Below, piece after piece: positions 28,465 to 36,186 of a stretch of 36,186 nt of DNA. The DNA is taken from the IMG/VR virus record IMGVR_UViG_3300042115_000005, positions 1-36,186 of that record; one strand, 5' to 3'. Source of the DNA: a virus. The notes beneath the pieces are model-generated. The model worked only from the letters and a program-made list of their open reading frames with translations, searched no databases and was not told the origin of the DNA. A program made the position numbers and the translations under genes. Position 1 is the stretch's first letter, and each line of letters begins with the position of its first letter.

Positions 28465-28866
28465 TTAAACTGGGAGATTGGTGATGTTGGTAACGTCAGC
28501 GTTGACCTTCGGCTGGCGCTTAGCCCGAGTCTTCTTCTCAGCGGGCAGGTTCTGGATCTCAGGGTTCTCCTTGACGATCCGGCCAGTTGGAGTGGCAACC
28601 ACTTCGGTGACCTCAGGTTCCTTGTGCAGGATCTTCATGAGGGTCTTGAAGTGCAACTCAATGCCCTTGGTGGTCATCTTCTCGGCACCCAGACGCAGGG
28701 CTTCGATGCGAGTCTCAAGGTCGCCTGAGAGGAAGCGATTTTCCATCAGCTCCTCAGTGTTGTAGCCGACCCGGCTCGTGGTGGTTTGCTCACCGATGGT
28801 CGTAGAGGTTTCGATGAGGATCAGGTCGTCCACTTTGGAACTGGTAGCGGTCACGATAACTTGCAT
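28465..28866 (-). CDS. Hypothetical protein in the gene 1.2 position
   Basis: 133 residues from the ATG at 28866, with GGGAGACCCTCTAATC upstream; an ATG at 28884 has no ribosome site. A beta-rich N-terminal part (MQVIVTATSSKVDDLILIET), a helical middle (LETRIEALRLGAEKM) and a Lys/Pro-rich tail (KKTRAKRQPK). It occupies the place of T7 gene 1.2 (dGTPase inhibitor) but I see no similarity to it. Confidence 0.7.
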   Translation of the reverse strand: MQVIVTATSSKVDDLILIETSTTIGEQTTTSRVGYNTEELMENRFLSGDLETRIEALRLGAEKMTTKGIELHFKTLMKILHKEPEVTEVVATPTGRIVKENPEIQNLPAEKKTRAKRQPKVNADVTNITNLPV

Positions 28867-28868
28867 GA

Positions 28869-29006
28869 TTAGAGGGTCTCCCATTCGTTGCGTTGAGTAC
28901 GGTTTGGTTTGTTGCGCTTGCCCTTCTTGGCCCGGATGGTTTCCATCTCAGAGTCATCACGCAGGGTCTTACGGGCGGTCTTCTCGAAGTTCAGTGCAGC
29001 GTTCAT
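28869..29006 (-). CDS. 1.1: gp1.1-like small basic protein (45 aa)
   Basis: ATG at 29006, with ATAAGGAATAGCCTGC overlapping the end of the RNA polymerase gene. The product is strongly basic: MNAALNFEKTARKTLRDD, then KKGKRNKPNRTQRNEW. The NFEKxxRK start and the position immediately after gene 1 resemble T7 gp1.1 (42 aa) as I recall it. It is followed three bases later by the next gene. Function unknown; nucleic acid binding is plausible. Confidence 0.7.
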   Translation of the reverse strand: MNAALNFEKTARKTLRDDSEMETIRAKKGKRNKPNRTQRNEWETL

Positions 29007-29018
29007 GCAGGCTATTCC

Positions 29019-31676
29019 TTATGCAAATGCAAAGTCGGATTTGAGGATGTCTCGGATGTTCAGCGTGCCCATCTCTGGGAGCGGAGGCATCTTGTCTAAT
29101 TGGGTCTCGTGGAGCTGCTCCATGAACTGCTCACGGAAGTCAGCCAGCACGTTGCTGTTCTCGTAGGTCTCGACCATCGTCTCTCGGACTGCTCGAAACA
29201 TGGCCCCAGCTTTGGAGGCGATGGTTCCGAATGAGTCGTGGATGAGAGCAAAGAAGCGGATCGCATGATTGTCGTGGCCGTGGACCACTGTTTTGCGAAG
29301 GTGTGAGCCATCTTGGCTGTGTACGAAGTTCGGGCTAATGCCACTCTCTTGCTTCCTTGCGTTGATCTTGTTGGTCCCGTTGTCACGCATCATGACGGTG
29401 GCCTGAATGCGCACATCACCGAGGAACATCAGGTCCACTCGACGAGTCGGGTTGATCGTATATTGCTGCCACACAGGGAACCCGTCAGGGGTCGTCCAGT
29501 AGACAGGCATGGCAGGCTTGAGGACCACTTTGGTCTTCTTACACTTGACCTCAGCGGCCAGCAGCTTGGCAGCCTTCTGAAGCCAGTTCATTGCTTCCAC
29601 AGCAGCGACCACAACGACACTCACCGAGTCCCAGATCTTACCGGCCATGTAGCGGCTGGCTTCACCGGGGCTTGTGAACATATGGCCTTCATCGTTGTCG
29701 ATGGCTTTCTTTACGATGTCCTCACGAACCTGATCGGCAAACCCGTAGGCTTTCGAACCGTAGGCGAGGGTCATAACGGATCGCTTGGTAACCTTTCGGG
29801 ACATCCCGTAGGTCAACCACGCAATACTGAGGGTTTTTGTTCCGAGTCGACGAATGTCTTTGATCTCACCCGTCACATCATCGGCCAGGGTTTCAGTCCA
29901 GTCGTCTGTGCCGTACTTCATGTCCCACTGAAGGGAGATCTCTACTTCGTCAGAGACGAGCTTGTAGATGTCTTGCACCGATTCAGAAGGGACAAGGTTG
30001 ACTGCGCGACCACCACGCTCATCGCGGAGCATTGCCGAGAAGTGTTGAATCCCCGAACAGGACCCGTCGAAGGCAAGTGGTAATGCGCTGATGTGTCTCG
30101 GTCCATCCCGCACAACACCGGCCCACTCGAAGCAGAAGGCGAGGAAGCAAAATGGTGAATCCATCTGCATCCAATCTGTGACATTAAGAGGATCTGCCGC
30201 AATTGCGAGGATGAGTTCCTCATTGTCTTTCACCCATTGTTTGCGTTCTGGAAAGGGCACCTTATCGACACCCGCTGTGTTGGCCCCATGGACCATCAGC
30301 CATTCAATTCCTTCGTCACCTACAGGTTCCCCATGAGCCGCCTGAAGAATCCCCTTGGTCATGTCGTTGGACTGAGGGTTGAACGCTGGGACCGCATAGA
30401 CCCGACCACGCCAATCCAAGTTGTACGGGAAGTAAATCGCCTCGTACTCAGAGAACTTGTTGGCCTGCTCAAGGGAGAACTCATAGGCCAGTCTTCGAGA
30501 GACCCTTGCGGCGTCCTTGCGGTAAACCCCAGCGGCCTCTTTCTTCCAGCCCTTGAGGGCCTCTTCGTTGGTCTCGATGTCGTGCGGTTTGGCTGGCAAG
30601 GGTTGACGTTCCGTTGATGGAAACTCCTTGATGCTCACGTTCTTCCAGCCCATGACCGCGTTGGCGACCTCCAAGACCTTCTTGTTGACTGCCCATGCGG
30701 AGGACTGAGCGATGTTGACTGCTCGGTATACATTGGGCATCTCAACGTCGCGGTAGCGCTCTCTGGCCCCTCTCCCGTTCAACCGGATGAAGGTCAGAGG
30801 CTTGCGACCCTTGGCCCAGTAGCCACCACCCTGAAGACCTCTCCAAGGTTTCGGAGGGATGATCGTGGGTTGGTACTGAGGCGTGATCCCCGCCAGTGCA
30901 TAGGCTCGACTCTGGATCTTGTCGGCCCACTCTTGCTTCAGAAAGATGTACTCACCGTCAAGCTTCTTGTTCCCACCATGATCCCGGCGAACCTCGATCA
31001 GTTGGGTCGATTCAATGAGCAGTTCCAGCATACGGATGCCCATGTGAAAGCGGACATCGGAATCAGCCACGTTCCAGTCAACCCATGGGGCGTTGAGTTC
31101 GCCCTTCTGGAGCATGGACTCTTCGACCTTCTCCATGTAGGCCTTTTTGTAGGTCATACCGTTGCGCTTGGCGAGAGCCGGGGCGATGGCCTTCTTGAAG
31201 TGTTCAGCCTCAAGGATTCGGATGCGACCAAAGCGGGCTTCGTCTTCCAGAGCACCACCGACCACGATGGACATCTCTGTGACCGTTGGGGCGCCATTAC
31301 GACGCTGAGCGATCATGTTGAGGACGAAGCGGATGGTCACAGCGGCCATCGTGTCTGGGTTCATTTGCTGAAAGGCGCCGATGGCTACGTGCTTACGGCG
31401 CACCTTCGTGGTCTGGTGCTCGATCCAATCGGTGATCGCCTTGGACAGCAACGGGACCAGAGACCCGAGGAGCGGCATTGCTGCCTGATTGTTTGAGAAC
31501 TCACCACGTTCCATCTGACGCTCCATCTGGCGATGAAAGCGTTCCTCACCAAGCGTATACGCCTCGTGCTCTAAGCGAAGCTGTTCAGCAGCAAGCTCAG
31601 GTCCGTAGATGTTGGAGAGGGTGACGAAGGCGTGGGAAACAGAGATGTCGCTGAAGTCATGACGCTCAGGAATCAT
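29019..31676 (-). CDS. 1: Phage RNA polymerase gp1 (single subunit)
   Basis: 885 residues (T7 is 883). Catalytic motifs: FDGSCSGIQHFSAM (T7 D537 region), TKRSVMTLAYGSK (K631/Y639 region) and LIHDSFGTI (T7 D812); C-terminal end SDFAFA as in T7. Specificity loop residues, numbered by codon: R746, D748 and Q758. T7 has N748; D at this site is found in T3 polymerase and goes with C at -11/-10, which is what the nine promoters here carry. Upstream is a structured AT-rich leader; only a weak ribosome site (TTAAAG) precedes the ATG. Confidence 0.98.
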   Translation of the reverse strand: MIPERHDFSDISVSHAFVTLSNIYGPELAAEQLRLEHEAYTLGEERFHRQMERQMERGEFSNNQAAMPLLGSLVPLLSKAITDWIEHQTTKVRRKHVAIGAFQQMNPDTMAAVTIRFVLNMIAQRRNGAPTVTEMSIVVGGALEDEARFGRIRILEAEHFKKAIAPALAKRNGMTYKKAYMEKVEESMLQKGELNAPWVDWNVADSDVRFHMGIRMLELLIESTQLIEVRRDHGGNKKLDGEYIFLKQEWADKIQSRAYALAGITPQYQPTIIPPKPWRGLQGGGYWAKGRKPLTFIRLNGRGARERYRDVEMPNVYRAVNIAQSSAWAVNKKVLEVANAVMGWKNVSIKEFPSTERQPLPAKPHDIETNEEALKGWKKEAAGVYRKDAARVSRRLAYEFSLEQANKFSEYEAIYFPYNLDWRGRVYAVPAFNPQSNDMTKGILQAAHGEPVGDEGIEWLMVHGANTAGVDKVPFPERKQWVKDNEELILAIAADPLNVTDWMQMDSPFCFLAFCFEWAGVVRDGPRHISALPLAFDGSCSGIQHFSAMLRDERGGRAVNLVPSESVQDIYKLVSDEVEISLQWDMKYGTDDWTETLADDVTGEIKDIRRLGTKTLSIAWLTYGMSRKVTKRSVMTLAYGSKAYGFADQVREDIVKKAIDNDEGHMFTSPGEASRYMAGKIWDSVSVVVVAAVEAMNWLQKAAKLLAAEVKCKKTKVVLKPAMPVYWTTPDGFPVWQQYTINPTRRVDLMFLGDVRIQATVMMRDNGTNKINARKQESGISPNFVHSQDGSHLRKTVVHGHDNHAIRFFALIHDSFGTIASKAGAMFRAVRETMVETYENSNVLADFREQFMEQLHETQLDKMPPLPEMGTLNIRDILKSDFAFA

Positions 31677-31791
31677 TCTTTAAGATTCTCTATAAGGATT
31701 AATAGTCTTATAGGAATTACCTATAAGTTAATCTCAGAGAGTTCTTAAAGATGGTCTTTAAGTAGGTCTTTAGGTATGAACCCTCTGAGTC
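31677..31791 (-). promoter_or_regulatory. AT-rich palindromic leader of gene 1; candidate origin / RNase III site
   Basis: 31681-31740 has 16 G/C of 60 bases, far below the surroundings. It contains CTTATAGG-taatt-CCTATAAG (31707-31727, perfect 8-bp arms), CTTAAAGA-cca-TCTTTAAG (31744-31762, perfect 8-bp arms) and an outer stem CTCAGAGGGTT / AACTCTCTGAG (31779-31789 with 31733-31743; one G-U). It lies just downstream of a phage promoter. The + strand holds TGGTC and AGGTC, candidate T7-type primase sites. A promoter followed by an AT-rich tract is the layout of the T7 primary origin; the hairpins also suit RNase III processing. Confidence 0.6.
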
Positions 31792-31813
31792 TCGCAACAG
31801 TGAGGGTTTTTAA
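31792..31813 (-). promoter_or_regulatory. Phage promoter, middle type, before gene 1
   Basis: Minus strand TTAAAAACCCTCACTGTTGC, G at -3, +1 at 31795. It is the most upstream phage promoter in the window and would let the polymerase transcribe its own gene (positive feedback) and, possibly, prime replication. Confidence 0.94.
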
Positions 31814-31822
31814 CTTTGAGAC

Positions 31823-32278
31823 TTACTTCAGGACTTCGATTCTGCCGTGAACGTCGGAGAGCTTGTAGACAAACTCTTTGATCTCGCAGTCATCTCGCCA
31901 AGCCATGATGGCCTTTCGGATGGCCTTAGAGATTCCTTGGTTGTACTCAAAGGCCGACTTGCAGCCCACAAGGCCAAACCACCGAGGACGCTGGGATTCA
32001 GCGAACTCAGCAGCCTCTTGGCCTGCATATGGTGGGTATGGTCGAGGCGTTGCGTAGGACGTTTGGGTAATCGTGAGGAGCTGATCCGTCACACTGTAGG
32101 CCAGGGTTTCAACGTGACGCCCACAGGGCCCTTCGCCCAGCTTGAAGACCACCTCAGTGACCTTCATGAGGCCGTAACGCTCAGGCTCAGGGAACGAGGC
32201 GCGAAGCTTGATCTGCTTGACGTGGGCCTTATTGGTCGTCCTACCGCCAACGTAGTGAACGTTGCTCATGACACCCAT
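31823..32278 (-). CDS. Hypothetical early protein, last gene before gene 1
   Basis: 151 residues; ATG at 32278 overlaps the previous stop (TGATG), with GGGAGGCTTCTG before it. Mixed alpha/beta composition, with a Pro/Tyr-rich turn (ATPRPYPPYAGQ) and a helical C-terminal half (GISKAIRKAIMAWRDD). No membrane segment and no known family. T7 has gene 0.7 here, but this is unrelated in size and sequence. Confidence 0.75.
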   Translation of the reverse strand: MGVMSNVHYVGGRTTNKAHVKQIKLRASFPEPERYGLMKVTEVVFKLGEGPCGRHVETLAYSVTDQLLTITQTSYATPRPYPPYAGQEAAEFAESQRPRWFGLVGCKSAFEYNQGISKAIRKAIMAWRDDCEIKEFVYKLSDVHGRIEVLK

Positions 32279-32484
32279 CAGAAGCCTCCCCGGTAGCAGC
32301 GAGTGAAGTCGCCTTGGTCGCTGTACTTGAGGGTCTCTCGTTGACGCTGAGCAGCAATCATTGCGAGGTCGCCACGGAAGTACGTCTTGCTTGGGACGCC
32401 ATTCTTACGACCCCTCAGGGCCTTCTCAGCGGTGATCTTGGTGTCGATCAGGCCCTTGCGAGCCGGTTGGTAGTTCGTGTGCAT
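32278..32484 (-). CDS. Small basic early protein
   Basis: 68 residues from the ATG at 32484, which overlaps the oxygenase stop (TGATG); GTG one codon earlier is an alternative. Rich in Arg/Lys/Gln (KGLIDTKITAEKALRGRKNG, MIAAQRQRETLKY). Likely nucleic-acid or protein binding; function unknown. Translation is probably coupled to the oxygenase gene because the nearest GGAG is 12 nt away. Confidence 0.7.
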   Translation of the reverse strand: MHTNYQPARKGLIDTKITAEKALRGRKNGVPSKTYFRGDLAMIAAQRQRETLKYSDQGDFTRCYRGGF

Positions 32485-33188
32485 CACTTAACTTCACTCC
32501 AGTGGACCAGTAGGTGGCGCTCGCCTTCGGTGACGGGCAGGCCATAGTGCAGGGTTGTTTTGCCCTTGAAGAACATCGCCCAACCGGGCAGGTTCTGAGG
32601 GACTTCGATAGGCTCCACAAAGGGCCCTTGATGAACCATCGTGCCACCGCCCTCATGGTCATCATTGAGAGCCACAACGAGCGTCACGTCCGAGTCCCGG
32701 TCAGTGTGCCAATGGCCTCTGGGAGTCTCTGAGGGGCTGTACATGGCCGCTTGCACGCTGGTCAGTACGTCCGGCTCAAGGTTGAACAGAACCTTCGCAT
32801 AGGCCAGCCCAGCGTCAGCCCAGAAGGACCGGAAGACCTCATAGAGAACCTTGTGATCGTTCTGGAAGACCACCTCAGGGATCTGGGCCTCTAAGGGCTC
32901 CTCAAGGTTGGGCTCATGCTCGAACTTGCCGACCTCGTGCCTGATGTCCTCGCAGTACTTTGGATGCAGGTAGGCAACGCTGTAGACGCCCGGTGCATGA
33001 CAGACCACGCAGTCATCAAGGAACTTTTGCCAAGAGCTGGACTCAGAGAAGTCGCTCGGTGCAATCCCGCCGTTGTCCTCAGCGTGCTTGGCCATCTCTT
33101 TGAGGGTCTCAAGGTGCTCTCTGAGGAGCGGGTGGTACTTGTCAACCGAGGCGATGCCCGTGGTGGCTTTGGTCAGCACTGTGCTCAT
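32484..33188 (-). CDS. 2-oxoglutarate/Fe(II)-dependent oxygenase (prolyl 4-hydroxylase-like)
   Basis: 234 residues. The double-stranded beta-helix signature is complete: H161-x-D163 in RGHWHTDRDSD, distal H214 in TTLHYGLPV, and R224 in EGERHLLVHW for the 2-oxoglutarate carboxylate. GGGTMVHQGPF and PGWAMFFKGK between them are typical of the P4Hc superfamily. The first 110 residues are a separate helical/Cys-containing part (C60, C63, C79). The substrate could be a protein side chain, nucleic acid base or small molecule. ATGA overlap with the upstream tail-anchored protein suggests they work together. Confidence 0.88.
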   Translation of the reverse strand: MSTVLTKATTGIASVDKYHPLLREHLETLKEMAKHAEDNGGIAPSDFSESSSWQKFLDDCVVCHAPGVYSVAYLHPKYCEDIRHEVGKFEHEPNLEEPLEAQIPEVVFQNDHKVLYEVFRSFWADAGLAYAKVLFNLEPDVLTSVQAAMYSPSETPRGHWHTDRDSDVTLVVALNDDHEGGGTMVHQGPFVEPIEVPQNLPGWAMFFKGKTTLHYGLPVTEGERHLLVHWSEVK

Positions 33189-33667
33189 GCAAAGACCCCT
33201 GTGAGGTCCCTGAGGACGCTGAATACCACGCCACCGGCCATGCCTAATGCGGCCACTGTCAAGTACTCGACCAGTGATTTAGTTACTGTTTTGGAAGGAA
33301 TATTTACGCATCCCATATTGCTTTCCCGTTCAGGCTGTGAGTCCGCCCGTCGGGCTGTGATCAACGGATGCTCGAAACGTGTATATAATTCGCTCAGCAA
33401 CATTGAGAAGGCTGCCTCGGAGTCTCTCGGCCAGTGGAATGCAGCCTGTAAGATCAGGTGCCCGACCTCTTGCCCATTACCAGCGAGGAACTGGAAGGTA
33501 TAGCCTCCAGAGCGATCACAAGGAATCACGTTCACACGAAGCCAGCGCTGCCCATGCCGGTTCTCGACATAGTGAGCGTAGCCATCAGACATGCAGTCAG
33601 CCATCGCTCTCAGGAGGCGCTTAGCGAATGCCTCAGAGACAAAGTTAGTGCGGTTGAAGCGTTGCAT
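33185..33667 (-). CDS. Early protein with C-terminal membrane anchor
   Basis: 160 residues; AAGGGAATAGT precedes the ATG. Residues 1-120 are soluble (VSEAFAKRLLRAMADCMSDG; WLRVNVIPCD; HLILQAAFHW). The C-terminal 30 residues hold a hydrophobic helix (VEYLTVAALGMAGGVVFSVL) followed by RDLTGVFA, so it is probably tail-anchored in the inner membrane facing the cytoplasm. Overlaps the oxygenase start (ATGA). No family recognised. Confidence 0.75.
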   Translation of the reverse strand: MQRFNRTNFVSEAFAKRLLRAMADCMSDGYAHYVENRHGQRWLRVNVIPCDRSGGYTFQFLAGNGQEVGHLILQAAFHWPRDSEAAFSMLLSELYTRFEHPLITARRADSQPERESNMGCVNIPSKTVTKSLVEYLTVAALGMAGGVVFSVLRDLTGVFA

Positions 33668-33747
33668 ACTATTCCCTTACGGATGTTGGTGAGGTAGGAC
33701 AGTGCGCCCAGCGGAGAACCCTCAAAGACGAAGGCTCTCGACTTGGA

Positions 33748-33903
33748 TCACTTGCTTGCAGGAGTCTCAGAGGCCACTGGACAGGCCACAGAGTCAACCA
33801 TGAAGGTTGCATGGGGCGCGGTCACAACGTTGGCCTGACAGCCCGACAGAGCCAGCGAGAAGGCTAAGCACAGTGCAGCAGCGGTGAGGTTATGTACGGA
33901 CAT
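33748..33903 (-). CDS. 51-aa lipoprotein
   Basis: ATG at 33903 after ATAAGGAAACCTCTCA. Signal peptide MSVHNLTAAALCLAFSLALS is followed by lipobox L19-S20-G21-C22; the mature part is only 30 residues (CQANVVTAPHATFMVDS...). Residue +2 is Gln, so by the +2 rule outer-membrane sorting is expected. The n-region is unusual in lacking Lys/Arg. It is isolated by about 80 nt on each side from neighbouring genes. Phage early lipoproteins (T5 Llp type) block receptors against superinfection; that role here is inference. It is not nested in another frame as Rz1 spanins usually are. Confidence 0.75.
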   Translation of the reverse strand: MSVHNLTAAALCLAFSLALSGCQANVVTAPHATFMVDSVACPVASETPASK

Positions 33904-33979
33904 TGAGAGGTTTCCTTATGGTATGAACAGAGAGTTGTTCCCAATGGACCCTGTGTGAGAAGGCCCATCAGTGAATCGC

Positions 33980-34078
33980 TCACAGTGGATACGTGTAGTG
34001 GAACGTGAAGAAGCCTATGAGACACCCAACGGCTGCCGCTACGAGGAACACAGCGGACAGGATGATGGCGAACTTCAT
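33980..34078 (-). CDS. 32-aa membrane peptide
   Basis: ATG overlaps the preceding stop (ATGA) and GTGAGGAGTC gives a ribosome site close by. MKFAIILSAVFLVAAAVGCL then IGFFTFHYTYPL: one membrane helix with aromatic C-terminal end. VGC could be read as a weak lipobox, but no acceptable -3 residue pattern supports it clearly. It lies just upstream of the lipoprotein gene and may act with it (inference). Confidence 0.68.
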   Translation of the reverse strand: MKFAIILSAVFLVAAAVGCLIGFFTFHYTYPL

Positions 34079-34431
34079 GACTCCTCACCAGCCGTGGCCA
34101 GCTCATAGAGGGCCTCAGCAAGTGCGTTGGTAGAGTGGTCAGCGATCACCTCAGCTGGAGAGTTGCCGTAGATCAGTGCGAAGGACGCAGCGATCATCTT
34201 CTTGGAATCGCAGAGCCTCAGTGTGTCCTGATCGGTGGCCATGATGTTGTCCATGACTTCCTGTTCAGTGGTGGCGTATCGGACTTCCCAATCCTCACCG
34301 TTGTGGATAGACACGTTGTAGCCCAGCTTGAAGGCCTCAGTGATGAGCCTGCGAATAACTCGGCGTTCCCCGATGATGCGCTCGGCGGTCTGAGGGTACT
34401 TGGCTTTGATTTGCTCGTTGGTCATTTTCAT
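34075..34431 (-). CDS. Hypothetical early protein
   Basis: 118 residues; ATG overlaps the preceding stop (ATGA). Helical charged N-terminus (MTNEQIKAKYPQTAERIIGE), then RRLITEAFKLGYNVSIHNGE and an acidic C-terminal end. No membrane segment and no recognised family; composition suggests a small soluble alpha/beta protein. Confidence 0.72.
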   Translation of the reverse strand: MKMTNEQIKAKYPQTAERIIGERRVIRRLITEAFKLGYNVSIHNGEDWEVRYATTEQEVMDNIMATDQDTLRLCDSKKMIAASFALIYGNSPAEVIADHSTNALAEALYELATAGEES

Positions 34432-34646
34432 GAGCGTTTACCTTCGTTGAGTAGGTGAACTGTGATGGTGCCCACTTCGGACTCCAAGAAGCTTTCCGCG
34501 TCGATGCTCTTGGCGACCTTATTGAGGGCCTTAGCGAGTTCCTTGGCCTCCTTGGCGTTGAAGTACAGGGTCTCACCTTTGCCCGGTAGAGACAGTGCGA
34601 CAAACTCATGGAAGCGGTGCAGGTTGGCATTCAGTAAGCGGCCCAT
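34428..34646 (-). CDS. Hypothetical early protein
   Basis: 72 residues from the ATG at 34646, after CAGAGGTTTAATC; longer in-frame reading upstream overlaps the previous gene and is rejected. FHEFVALSLPGKGETLYFNA (beta hairpin-like), then AKELAKALNKVAKSIDAESF (helix), then GTITVHLLNEG. Compact beta-alpha-beta pattern. Function unknown. Confidence 0.7.
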   Translation of the reverse strand: MGRLLNANLHRFHEFVALSLPGKGETLYFNAKEAKELAKALNKVAKSIDAESFLESEVGTITVHLLNEGKRS

Positions 34647-34648
34647 GA

Positions 34649-35002
34649 TTAAACCTCTGTGTAGCGTGAGGATGGCTGGTAGGTGGCAAGGTGCTGATCC
34701 AGCGTTGTGAATTGCCAGTTGGCTCCACGTACAGCCCATTGAGGTGGGTACTCAGCGAGCATATCCGAGAAGGTGCCTCTGAGGACCTCCCAGCCGGTTC
34801 CTGTAGAGCGTGGTTGGTCGGTCTTGTAGTTGCCAAAGAACTTGAAGCCAGCCAGATCATACTGGAAGGAGGTGACGCGGGAGCCTTCAAGGTCCGTGTA
34901 GAGACCATGCGTTCCACTTGCAGCGATGAACACGCGGAACCCAGCGGCCTTGATCTCTTGGGCCAGTGCAGCGACAGCTTCGGTTTTGTAATTGGTGATC
35001 AT
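34649..35002 (-). CDS. Hypothetical early protein
   Basis: 117 residues from the ATG at 35002, with TCAGGAACTAACACC upstream; the frame upstream of it runs inside the previous gene. It begins with a helix (MITNYKTEAVAALAQEIKAA) followed by GFRVFIAASGTHGLYTDLEG and aromatic-rich stretches (FKFFGNYKTDQP; EYPPQWAVRG). No recognised domain. Confidence 0.72.
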   Translation of the reverse strand: MITNYKTEAVAALAQEIKAAGFRVFIAASGTHGLYTDLEGSRVTSFQYDLAGFKFFGNYKTDQPRSTGTGWEVLRGTFSDMLAEYPPQWAVRGANWQFTTLDQHLATYQPSSRYTEV

Positions 35003-35006
35003 GGTG

Positions 35007-35249
35007 TTAGTTCCTGATAGTGAGCTTTGCGATGTCCGACCAGCCTTGACGTAGTGCGTCCTCACGGATGCCTTGGTAGACATCATCCACGACAGACTCA
35101 ATGGTCTCCTTATGGGCCCCAGTGGCTTGCAGTGCGTCTCTGAATTCGTCTACAGAGAGGGCCTTGCCATCCAGCGTGAAGGTGAAACCGTTGTGGTACA
35201 CGTTGTAGCCAATTGCATACCCGGCGTATCGGTAGATGTACTTGGTCAT
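35007..35249 (-). CDS. Hypothetical early protein
   Basis: 80 residues; AACGAGGTGCGTCC before the ATG, four bases of overlap with the previous gene. Tyr-rich N-terminus (MTKYIYRYAGYAIGYNVYHN), then a helical acidic part (HKETIESVVDDVYQGIREDA). No known family. Confidence 0.72.
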   Translation of the reverse strand: MTKYIYRYAGYAIGYNVYHNGFTFTLDGKALSVDEFRDALQATGAHKETIESVVDDVYQGIREDALRQGWSDIAKLTIRN

Positions 35250-35542
35250 GGACGCACCTCGTTAGGCTCATAGACCGATGCAGAGCACAGCTTGATGAGG
35301 TCGCGCAGTTCACGCACTGAGGCGACCCTGAAGATGATCCCGGTGGTGTCCTCCACAAGCCAGTAGTGGCCTTCCCAGCCGCCCCAGTGCCCTACCGTGT
35401 AGACAAGATCCCGGTGGTAGACCTTGAGGAACGTGGGTTGCTTCTGAAGCGTTATGGCGAACTTGGAGAGCCTTACAGCCTCCTCAGCGGTGTTGATGGC
35501 TGGCATTGCGAGGATTGCAGCGGTCAAGTCATGGATACGCAT
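35246..35542 (-). CDS. Hypothetical early protein
   Basis: 98 residues; strong AAGGAGTAACGCACC ribosome site. Helical start (AAILAMPAINTAEEAVRLSK), then Trp/Tyr/Gly-rich beta region (YTVGHWGGWEGHYWLVEDTT) and a helical end (RELRDLIKLCSAS). The Trp-rich centre suggests a small protein-interaction domain; no family recognised. Confidence 0.72.
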   Translation of the reverse strand: MRIHDLTAAILAMPAINTAEEAVRLSKFAITLQKQPTFLKVYHRDLVYTVGHWGGWEGHYWLVEDTTGIIFRVASVRELRDLIKLCSASVYEPNEVRP

Positions 35543-35548
35543 GGTGCG

Positions 35549-35797
35549 TTACTCCTTGTCAGCGTTGAGGGCTTCGAGCAGGTCAGCCTTAGTGCGGTGC
35601 CATACGGCCTCAAGGACCCTACAGCGTGTCAGCGTGCTGTCCACCTCGTTGCGCAGCTTCTCCCACATGGGATGTGCAGAGGAGCCCTCAAAGCGCCCAA
35701 AGAGGACCTTAGCGGCACGGTGTTCATCCTCAGCCGTTGCTATGCGAGTGTCGAGGTCAGCCAGCTCCTTACGGAGTCGATCAGTGCGAGCGCTCAT
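35549..35797 (-). CDS. Helical early protein
   Basis: 82 residues, GGAGGGCTGAC before the ATG, two bases from the preceding stop. Mostly charged helix (DRLRKELADLDTRIATAEDE; LLEALNADKE), likely a two-helix coiled coil. Mildly acidic, but not acidic enough to argue for an Ocr-type DNA mimic. Confidence 0.7.
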   Translation of the reverse strand: MSARTDRLRKELADLDTRIATAEDEHRAAKVLFGRFEGSSAHPMWEKLRNEVDSTLTRCRVLEAVWHRTKADLLEALNADKE

Positions 35798-35798
35798 G

Positions 35799-36059
35799 TC
35801 AGCCCTCCACGACAGTCAGTGCGTTGACGCCACGGCCAATGAAGCAACGGCCAACGTTGGAGTAGATTGCACAGTAAACGCGGCGCCACTTCCCGTTGAA
35901 CTTAACGAGGTGAACCGTTGGAATGCGAGACCCATAGCCACTGGCGGTAAAGCTTAAGCCCAGCTTGTGGTGCCTCATAGGTGCCTCTTTGGACTCCACG
36001 GCGATGGTTTGCATTGGCTCACCAGCCTTTCCCACTTGAACGAACAGTTGCTTGTTCAT
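35799..36059 (-). CDS. Hypothetical early protein, most upstream gene in the window
   Basis: 86 residues; AAAGGAAACAGACC before the ATG. Basic, Gly/Arg-rich, beta-type composition (MRHHKLGLSFTASGYGSRIP; KFNGKWRRVYCAIYSNVGRC). No recognised family. The noncoding stretch upstream reaches the window edge. Confidence 0.72.
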   Translation of the reverse strand: MNKQLFVQVGKAGEPMQTIAVESKEAPMRHHKLGLSFTASGYGSRIPTVHLVKFNGKWRRVYCAIYSNVGRCFIGRGVNALTVVEG

Positions 36060-36186
36060 GGTCTGTTTCCTTTAGTGTTTGGGTTTACAGTCGTAGGCTC
36101 TCTTTGTACTGCAAGTGAGCCCACTGCTTTAAATCCTTTCACTGCCACGCACCGGCCTCAACTCTTCCCAGAGGATGCTGTTTCAG
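36060..36186. other. Noncoding stretch at the right edge
   Basis: 127 bases upstream of the first early gene. No full match to the phage promoter and no convincing -35/-10 pair: the best minus-strand pair is TTGCAG with TGTAAA at a 19-base spacing, which is poor. Strong early promoters and the left terminal repeat probably lie beyond the window. Confidence 0.5.

Follow-up and report, generated by a model that had tools for sequence, protein, structure and literature searches.

The early genes of phage T7, among them ocr and the gp0.7 kinase, are transcribed ahead of the takeover by the phage RNA polymerase and are accessory to growth, and enzymes of the wider 2OG oxygenase superfamily oxidise many kinds of substrate. 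Within that superfamily, the lysyl hydroxylase (LH) domain of mimivirus L230 binds iron and 2OG through H825, D827, H877, Y814 and R887, and mutating such residues abolished activity (PMC5802723); for the 2OG oxygenases of cyanophages, a role in 2OG modulation or DNA repair has been proposed (PMC3037559). The DNA considered here, hereafter the window, is the whole of a 36,186-base virus record from a T7-like Pseudomonas phage encoded on the minus strand, whose closest named records are Ghunavirus. Upstream of its RNA polymerase gene lies a chain of overlapping genes, one of which encodes P0001, best described as an apparently intact, stand-alone lysyl-hydroxylase-like enzyme.

An early gene chain ahead of the RNA polymerase

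Four genes on the minus strand, those of P0002, P0001, P0003 and a protein like that of T3 gene 1.05, follow one another with head-to-tail overlaps. The features of the region are as follows.

33185..33667, minus strand: P0002, 160 aa, the partner, with a conserved N-terminal domain (about residues 1-105) and a variable C-terminal part (phrog_8679, E 2.4e-39; N-domain pLDDT 85-96; alignments)
33212..33265, minus strand: P0002 residues 135-152, an uncharged hydrophobic C-terminal segment, marginal as a membrane helix by octanol free energy
33185..33188, minus strand: ATGA stop-start overlap of P0002 and P0001
32484..33188, minus strand: P0001, 234 aa, lysyl-hydroxylase-like 2OG/Fe(II) oxygenase (phrog_61, LH3 profile match, AlphaFold, VIA)
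32278..32484, minus strand: P0003, 68 aa, a small basic protein whose gene overlaps the oxygenase stop by TGATG (phrog_19243, E 3.2e-20)
31823..32278, minus strand: T3 gene 1.05-like protein, 151 aa, fourth in the chain, TGATG overlap with P0003 (PF25755, E 5e-21)
31794..31813, minus strand: first promoter of the phage-RNA-polymerase type in the region, TTAAAAACCCTCACTGTTGC, downstream of the chain
29019..31676, minus strand: T7-type RNA polymerase, with which the early region ends (PF00940, E 6.6e-104; phrog_414)

The ATGA junction between the oxygenase and its upstream gene, described in the initial annotation of this DNA, is present at 33185-33188. The small basic protein said to be coupled to them is indeed basic and joined by TGATG, but it lies outside the interval that had been delimited, and the chain goes on to a fourth gene. 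Overlapping starts are common in this block (others are at 34075/34078, 34428/34431 and 35246/35249), so that the P0002/P0001 overlap is not special by itself; the special point is that it is retained in divergent phages.

Eight phage-type promoters were observed in the window versus none expected by chance. Because the first one of the region (31813-31794) occurs only after the chain, the four genes are most likely transcribed early by the host polymerase, which agrees with the early block that had been proposed. No host sigma-70 promoter was found in 28500-36186, and the record may stop short of the left end. Upstream of P0002 there is also a 51-aa ORF (33748-33903, minus strand) that may encode a small lipoprotein: its start is signal-like and it contains an LSGC resembling a lipobox.

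A lysyl-hydroxylase-like oxygenase

The phrog_61 profile ('2OG-Fe(II) oxygenase') matches P0001 over residues 1-232 (E 3.6e-51), and similarity to phrog_2297 was also seen. With PF13640 (2OG-FeII_Oxy_3) the protein scores 24.0 bits, below the gathering cut-off of 27, and its membership of the 2OG/Fe(II) superfamily rests on phrog_61, the fold and the ligands. The PADLOC match is to a generic '2OG' model. A profile built from 54 relatives recovered human LH3 (E 3.3e-16) and mimivirus L230 (E 7.8e-11) from the PDB, and no family besides LH matched up to E 0.1; with a smaller profile the figures were 7e-15 for LH3 versus 0.11 for the best prolyl 4-hydroxylase (P4H) match, a viral one.

The AlphaFold model of P0001 (pLDDT 94.3, pTM 0.91) agrees with this placement. 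In VIA comparisons its Z score is 23.2 with L230 (183 residues superposed at an rmsd of 1.7 A) and 22.6 with LH3, and LH chains overall score between 20.0 and 23.2; outside the LH family, the Z scores are 15.9 for OGFOD1, 15.3 for algal P4H, 15.0 for PiuC and 15.0 for the P4H of P. putida. Prolyl 4-hydroxylase is ruled out as the nearest relative by both the profile (E 0.11 versus 7e-15) and the fold margin (Z 15.3 versus 23.2), and PiuC by its NCBIfam score and by the fold margin (Z 15.0). The 'glycosyltransferase' label that is borne by some homologues (L124:1501-2205 and other records) was also rejected, since P0001 spans only the LH domain of LH3; the name was probably carried over from the bifunctional LH3.

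The model shows the double-stranded beta-helix fold, the HxD...H triad and the basic 2OG ligand by which the superfamily is recognized. The ligand residues, aligned to those of L230 and each invariant in 54/54 relatives, are the following.

32739..32741, minus strand: Y150, 2OG-binding tyrosine (L230 Y814)
32700..32708, minus strand: H161-T-D163, HxD iron-binding motif (L230 H825/D827)
32547..32549, minus strand: H214, distal iron ligand (L230 H877)
32517..32519, minus strand: R224, 2OG-binding arginine (L230 R887)

A loss of metal ligands in relatives, which was checked for, is therefore seen in none of the intact ones, and the oxygenase is under purifying selection (dN/dS about 0.1-0.2). With its full-length phrog_61 match and its metal and 2OG ligands present, P0001 is a complete 2OG/Fe(II) oxygenase, as had been stated. 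Its putative activity, 2OG-dependent oxidation, is well supported by the intact ligands and the predicted fold.

The partner protein and the third gene

P0002 matches phrog_8679 over residues 1-128. Conservation extends to about residue 105, the part for which the AlphaFold prediction is confident, while the C-terminal part is not conserved and has a dN/dS of 0.3-0.6. Structure prediction thus gave an LH-type model for the oxygenase and, for its partner, a confident N-terminal domain followed by a C-terminal segment with a pLDDT of about 44-53. This segment has a Kyte-Doolittle value of 1.64 and an octanol-scale free energy of -1.21 kcal/mol over 19 residues (-1.57 to +2.38 among clade members). 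It is found in the window and in eight clade relatives. The partners of Pifdecavirus, Phutvirus and other Ghunavirus instead end in a tail that looks soluble and has 'GG...YG...R.W..RK' as its conserved core, and those of a third group have a short end, with about 140 residues in total. The C-terminal membrane helix of the initial annotation survives as a hydrophobic segment of the window clade, but it is marginal, and it is absent from the other phrog_8679 clades. Nothing points to an envelope target, which had been suggested from this helix, the weakest of the features described, and partners elsewhere have soluble tails. No PDB chain matched the P0002 fold at E<=0.001 (best VIA Z 4.1), and in BFVD it matched only small unnamed phage proteins; this is no proof of a new fold.

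The link between partner and oxygenase was tallied at the 69 distinct oxygenase loci for which sufficient sequence upstream was available. A partner of the P0002 type (phrog_8679, class A) stands directly upstream of the oxygenase at 35/69 loci, the two genes overlapping by 4 bases or 1 base at 28 of these 35, and the order is held across relatives of 35-45% identity. At 15/69 loci the partner is of another type (phrog_24184/5433, class B), for which a common origin with class A was rejected (hhalign probability 0.1%). Class A has a near-invariant His-Pro (H100-P101) and no invariant lysine; class B has a near-invariant lysine, K92. Neither class is present at 19/69 loci, Warsawvirus being among the phages concerned, and the partner is therefore not needed everywhere. 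Conversely, the class A partner was seen on 12 viral contigs, of which 11 hold an intact oxygenase and the twelfth, phi15, a truncated one. The partner thus seems more dependent on the oxygenase than the oxygenase is on the partner. All class A-linked oxygenases but one outlier fall in a single clade of 26 rows (support 100/100), of which the rows L058 and L060 have little upstream sequence.

These counts support a link of the oxygenase to the gene preceding it; independent occurrence, for which the genes were checked, is seen for the oxygenase and hardly at all for the partner. The third gene behaves differently. P0003 has homologues in 73 phage records, yet at the class A loci a homologue lies downstream in only 14/35 and overlaps the oxygenase stop in 11/35, and in the Dickeya phage BIM BV-99 an Ant-like gene is inserted between the oxygenase and the P0003 homologue. 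P0003 is not a fixed part of the module. The proposal that three genes are always translated together fails in relatives, and a fixed three-gene module is not supported in view of the frequent absence of the third gene and the replacement of class A by the unrelated class B partner elsewhere.

Distribution and natural losses

At E 1e-5, 193 phage records match the oxygenase, nearly all of them from Pseudomonas phages, and at E<=0.01 there are 213 matches in 50,697 phage records; those in cyanophages are weak and appear only at E 0.01. No Escherichia occurs in the tally of organisms, which agrees with the remark that T7 has nothing like this. Among 84,980 genomes of bacteria and archaea, a scan based on a signature, and thus blind to relatives without it, found six loci. 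Five are from Pseudomonas, with an integrase near four of them (L042-L045) and a phage RNA polymerase downstream in L044-L046. The sixth is on a contig of 62,952 bases from a planctomycete MAG; a viral contig that carries this gene as well (L106) is identical to it in size, and the two are probably the same viral contig. Within the limits of the signature scan, the oxygenase family is close to phage-only.

The Pseudomonas contigs L042, L043, L044 and L045 carry T7-like oxygenase loci adjoining a phage integrase, and earP (EF-P rhamnosyltransferase) is the bacterial gene that flanks those of L043 and L045; the four appear to be T7-like prophages that are integrated in a common neighbourhood. 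An annotated integrase is also present at the left end of phage G11. In other lineages the relatives adjoin DNA primase or recombination genes, which makes a nucleic-acid or replication-protein substrate possible, and in 3MF5 the oxygenase adjoins an ArdA gene. In Itty13, which is not T7-like, the gene overlapping the oxygenase start (L026:4534-5001) resembles a Holliday junction resolvase/nuclease (phrog_190). The papers searched contained no work on the Ghunavirus oxygenase and named no substrate of the enzyme.

The block has also been lost or damaged in nature. In the type phage gh-1, no genes are annotated in the interval from the early promoters to the RNA polymerase. In phi15, gp8 (L027:3472-3888) consists of oxygenase residues 1-115 fused to a 1.05-like tail, so that the catalytic half is gone and the partner is kept. 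These two cases indicate that the block is accessory. In phiPstE (L040:2963-3972) an insertion that contains a duplicated segment splits the oxygenase close to the C-terminus, either a real event or an assembly error, and in phiGM22-3 (L036:4468-5118) the frame is broken in the second half by a frameshift or a sequencing error. The phi15 partner homologue, gp07, is annotated as 'virion structural protein', in line with the two early gene products found in phi15 particles by ESI-MS/MS (PMC3079711).

Possible functions of the oxygenase and its partner

Our tentative preference, quite possibly correct, is for an early accessory protein hydroxylase that acts with a lineage-specific partner on a protein, probably of the host, to ease infection on some hosts. 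P0001 would be transcribed early in infection by the host RNA polymerase and would hydroxylate a side chain, lysine being the leading guess, in a protein that most likely belongs to the host; some hosts would thereby be easier to infect. The product of the small gene just upstream would serve as its lineage-specific partner, be it adaptor, chaperone or localiser. In the window clade, the short hydrophobic tail may bring the partner to the membrane; other lineages have a different tail or another partner altogether. The LH affinity argues moderately for a protein substrate rather than a small molecule or a nucleic acid, and for lysine, although lysine specificity does not follow from an LH-type fold. 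That the target belongs to the host and that the partner is an adaptor we only infer. The initial reading of an early, intact and probably protein-modifying oxygenase is supported. Early expression, dispensability (gh-1, phi15) and neighbours of the ArdA type would fit a possible role in host takeover or counter-defence, and the ArdA and Ant neighbours also speak for an accessory status. We consider it rather unlikely that T7-like phages possess a lysyl-hydroxylase branch of their own, aimed by interchangeable small partners, which hydroxylates a host protein early as an oxygen- and 2OG-dependent means of takeover or counter-defence. To our knowledge, there is no example of such a modification.

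The conserved partner-oxygenase order and overlap could also mean that the substrate is one of the phage's own proteins, either the partner, modified as it is made, or replication proteins, classes A and B then being two substrates. The near-invariant H100-P101 of class A and K92 of class B point the same way, as do the primase genes adjoining the oxygenase in several lineages and the virion annotation of the phi15 partner homologue, which fits the early products reported in phi15 particles (PMC3079711). However, class A lacks an invariant lysine, the two classes have no detectable homology, phi15 retains its partner without a catalytic oxygenase, and in Warsawvirus and others the oxygenase occurs with neither partner, and a phage substrate appears distinctly unlikely to us. 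The same 19/69 loci with neither partner would suit two mere neighbours in a variable early slot, kept in this order by common descent and the packing of operons but with no joint function, and so would the common overlapping starts of the block and the way in which class A partners travel with one oxygenase clade. Such an accident of position is very unlikely, in our estimation, given an order kept across relatives of 35-45% identity and twelve partner-bearing viral contigs among which no partner was found without at least an oxygenase remnant.

An auxiliary metabolic or nucleic-acid role, in which a small molecule, a free amino acid or a nucleobase is oxidised or 2-oxoglutarate is drained, would accord with the broad substrate range of the wider superfamily, with the proposals made for cyanophage enzymes (PMC3037559), with the replication-gene neighbours in several lineages and with the phrog_2297 similarity. 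We find it unlikely because protein lysyl hydroxylases are by a wide margin the closest folds; AlkB- and TET-type enzymes are absent among the matches listed, which does not exclude such enzymes. As for the module of three fixed early genes, in which a tail-anchored protein brings the oxygenase to the host envelope, the gene overlaps and the hydrophobic segment in the window and eight clade relatives agree with it, but the marginal helix is confined to one clade, only 11/35 class A loci show an overlap between oxygenase and third gene, and Ant is inserted between these two in one phage, making this the most improbable of the readings.

If the preferred reading of an early protein hydroxylase were confirmed, it would mean an oxygen- and 2OG-dependent early protein modification directed against Pseudomonas hosts. 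About 190 sequenced phages carry the enzyme, and placing it with LH, as opposed to a generic '2OG oxygenase' label, provides a concrete chemistry that can be put to the test, a shift of +16 Da with lysine as the first residue to consider. Natural losses of the block (gh-1) or of its catalytic half (phi15) open the question to direct tests.

Comparison with known systems

The family phrog_61, classed under 'moron, auxiliary metabolic gene and host takeover', covers the window protein over its whole length, and many Pseudomonas homologues are already labelled '2OG-Fe(II) oxygenase' or 'hydroxylase'. The annotation of phrog_61 gives no substrate or sub-type, and includes neither the LH affinity nor the switching of partners.

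Two enzymes of the host genus belong to the same superfamily. The prolyl hydroxylase of P. putida, which acts on EF-Tu (4J25, 4IW3; Z 15.0), is about 8 Z units more distant from P0001 than LH is, and the PiuC/PKHD-type Fe(II) dioxygenase (9QN4, PRK05467; Z 15.0) shows a weak NCBIfam similarity, with 13 bits for P0001 versus a curated cut-off of 143. By position, the oxygenase occupies the same genome slot as ocr and the gp0.7 kinase of T7, to which it is unrelated in sequence. It is not a replacement of the 0.7 kinase, as Luutsna-1 and Kurepalu-1 carry both; in these two phages (L024 and L025) the oxygenase lies shortly ahead of the primase gene.

The nearest systems, in fold as in sequence profile, are the LH domain of mimivirus L230 (6AX6/6AX7) and human LH3/PLOD3 (6FXK and others), at an identity of about 21%. 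P0001 shares the iron and 2OG ligands of L230, including the equivalents of Y814 and R887, whereas after the HxD motif the phage enzyme reads DxDS in place of DS. The dimer-lock residues L873 and Y801 of L230 correspond to T211 (mostly T/A/R/Q among relatives) and L137 (mostly L/Q/V/I) and are not conserved. With its 234 aa, P0001 covers about residues 522-738 of LH3 and lacks the N-terminal glycosyltransferase domain. Since the dimer lock is not conserved and this domain is absent, P0001 is LH-like but not a collagen LH, and no collagen substrate is expected in the host.
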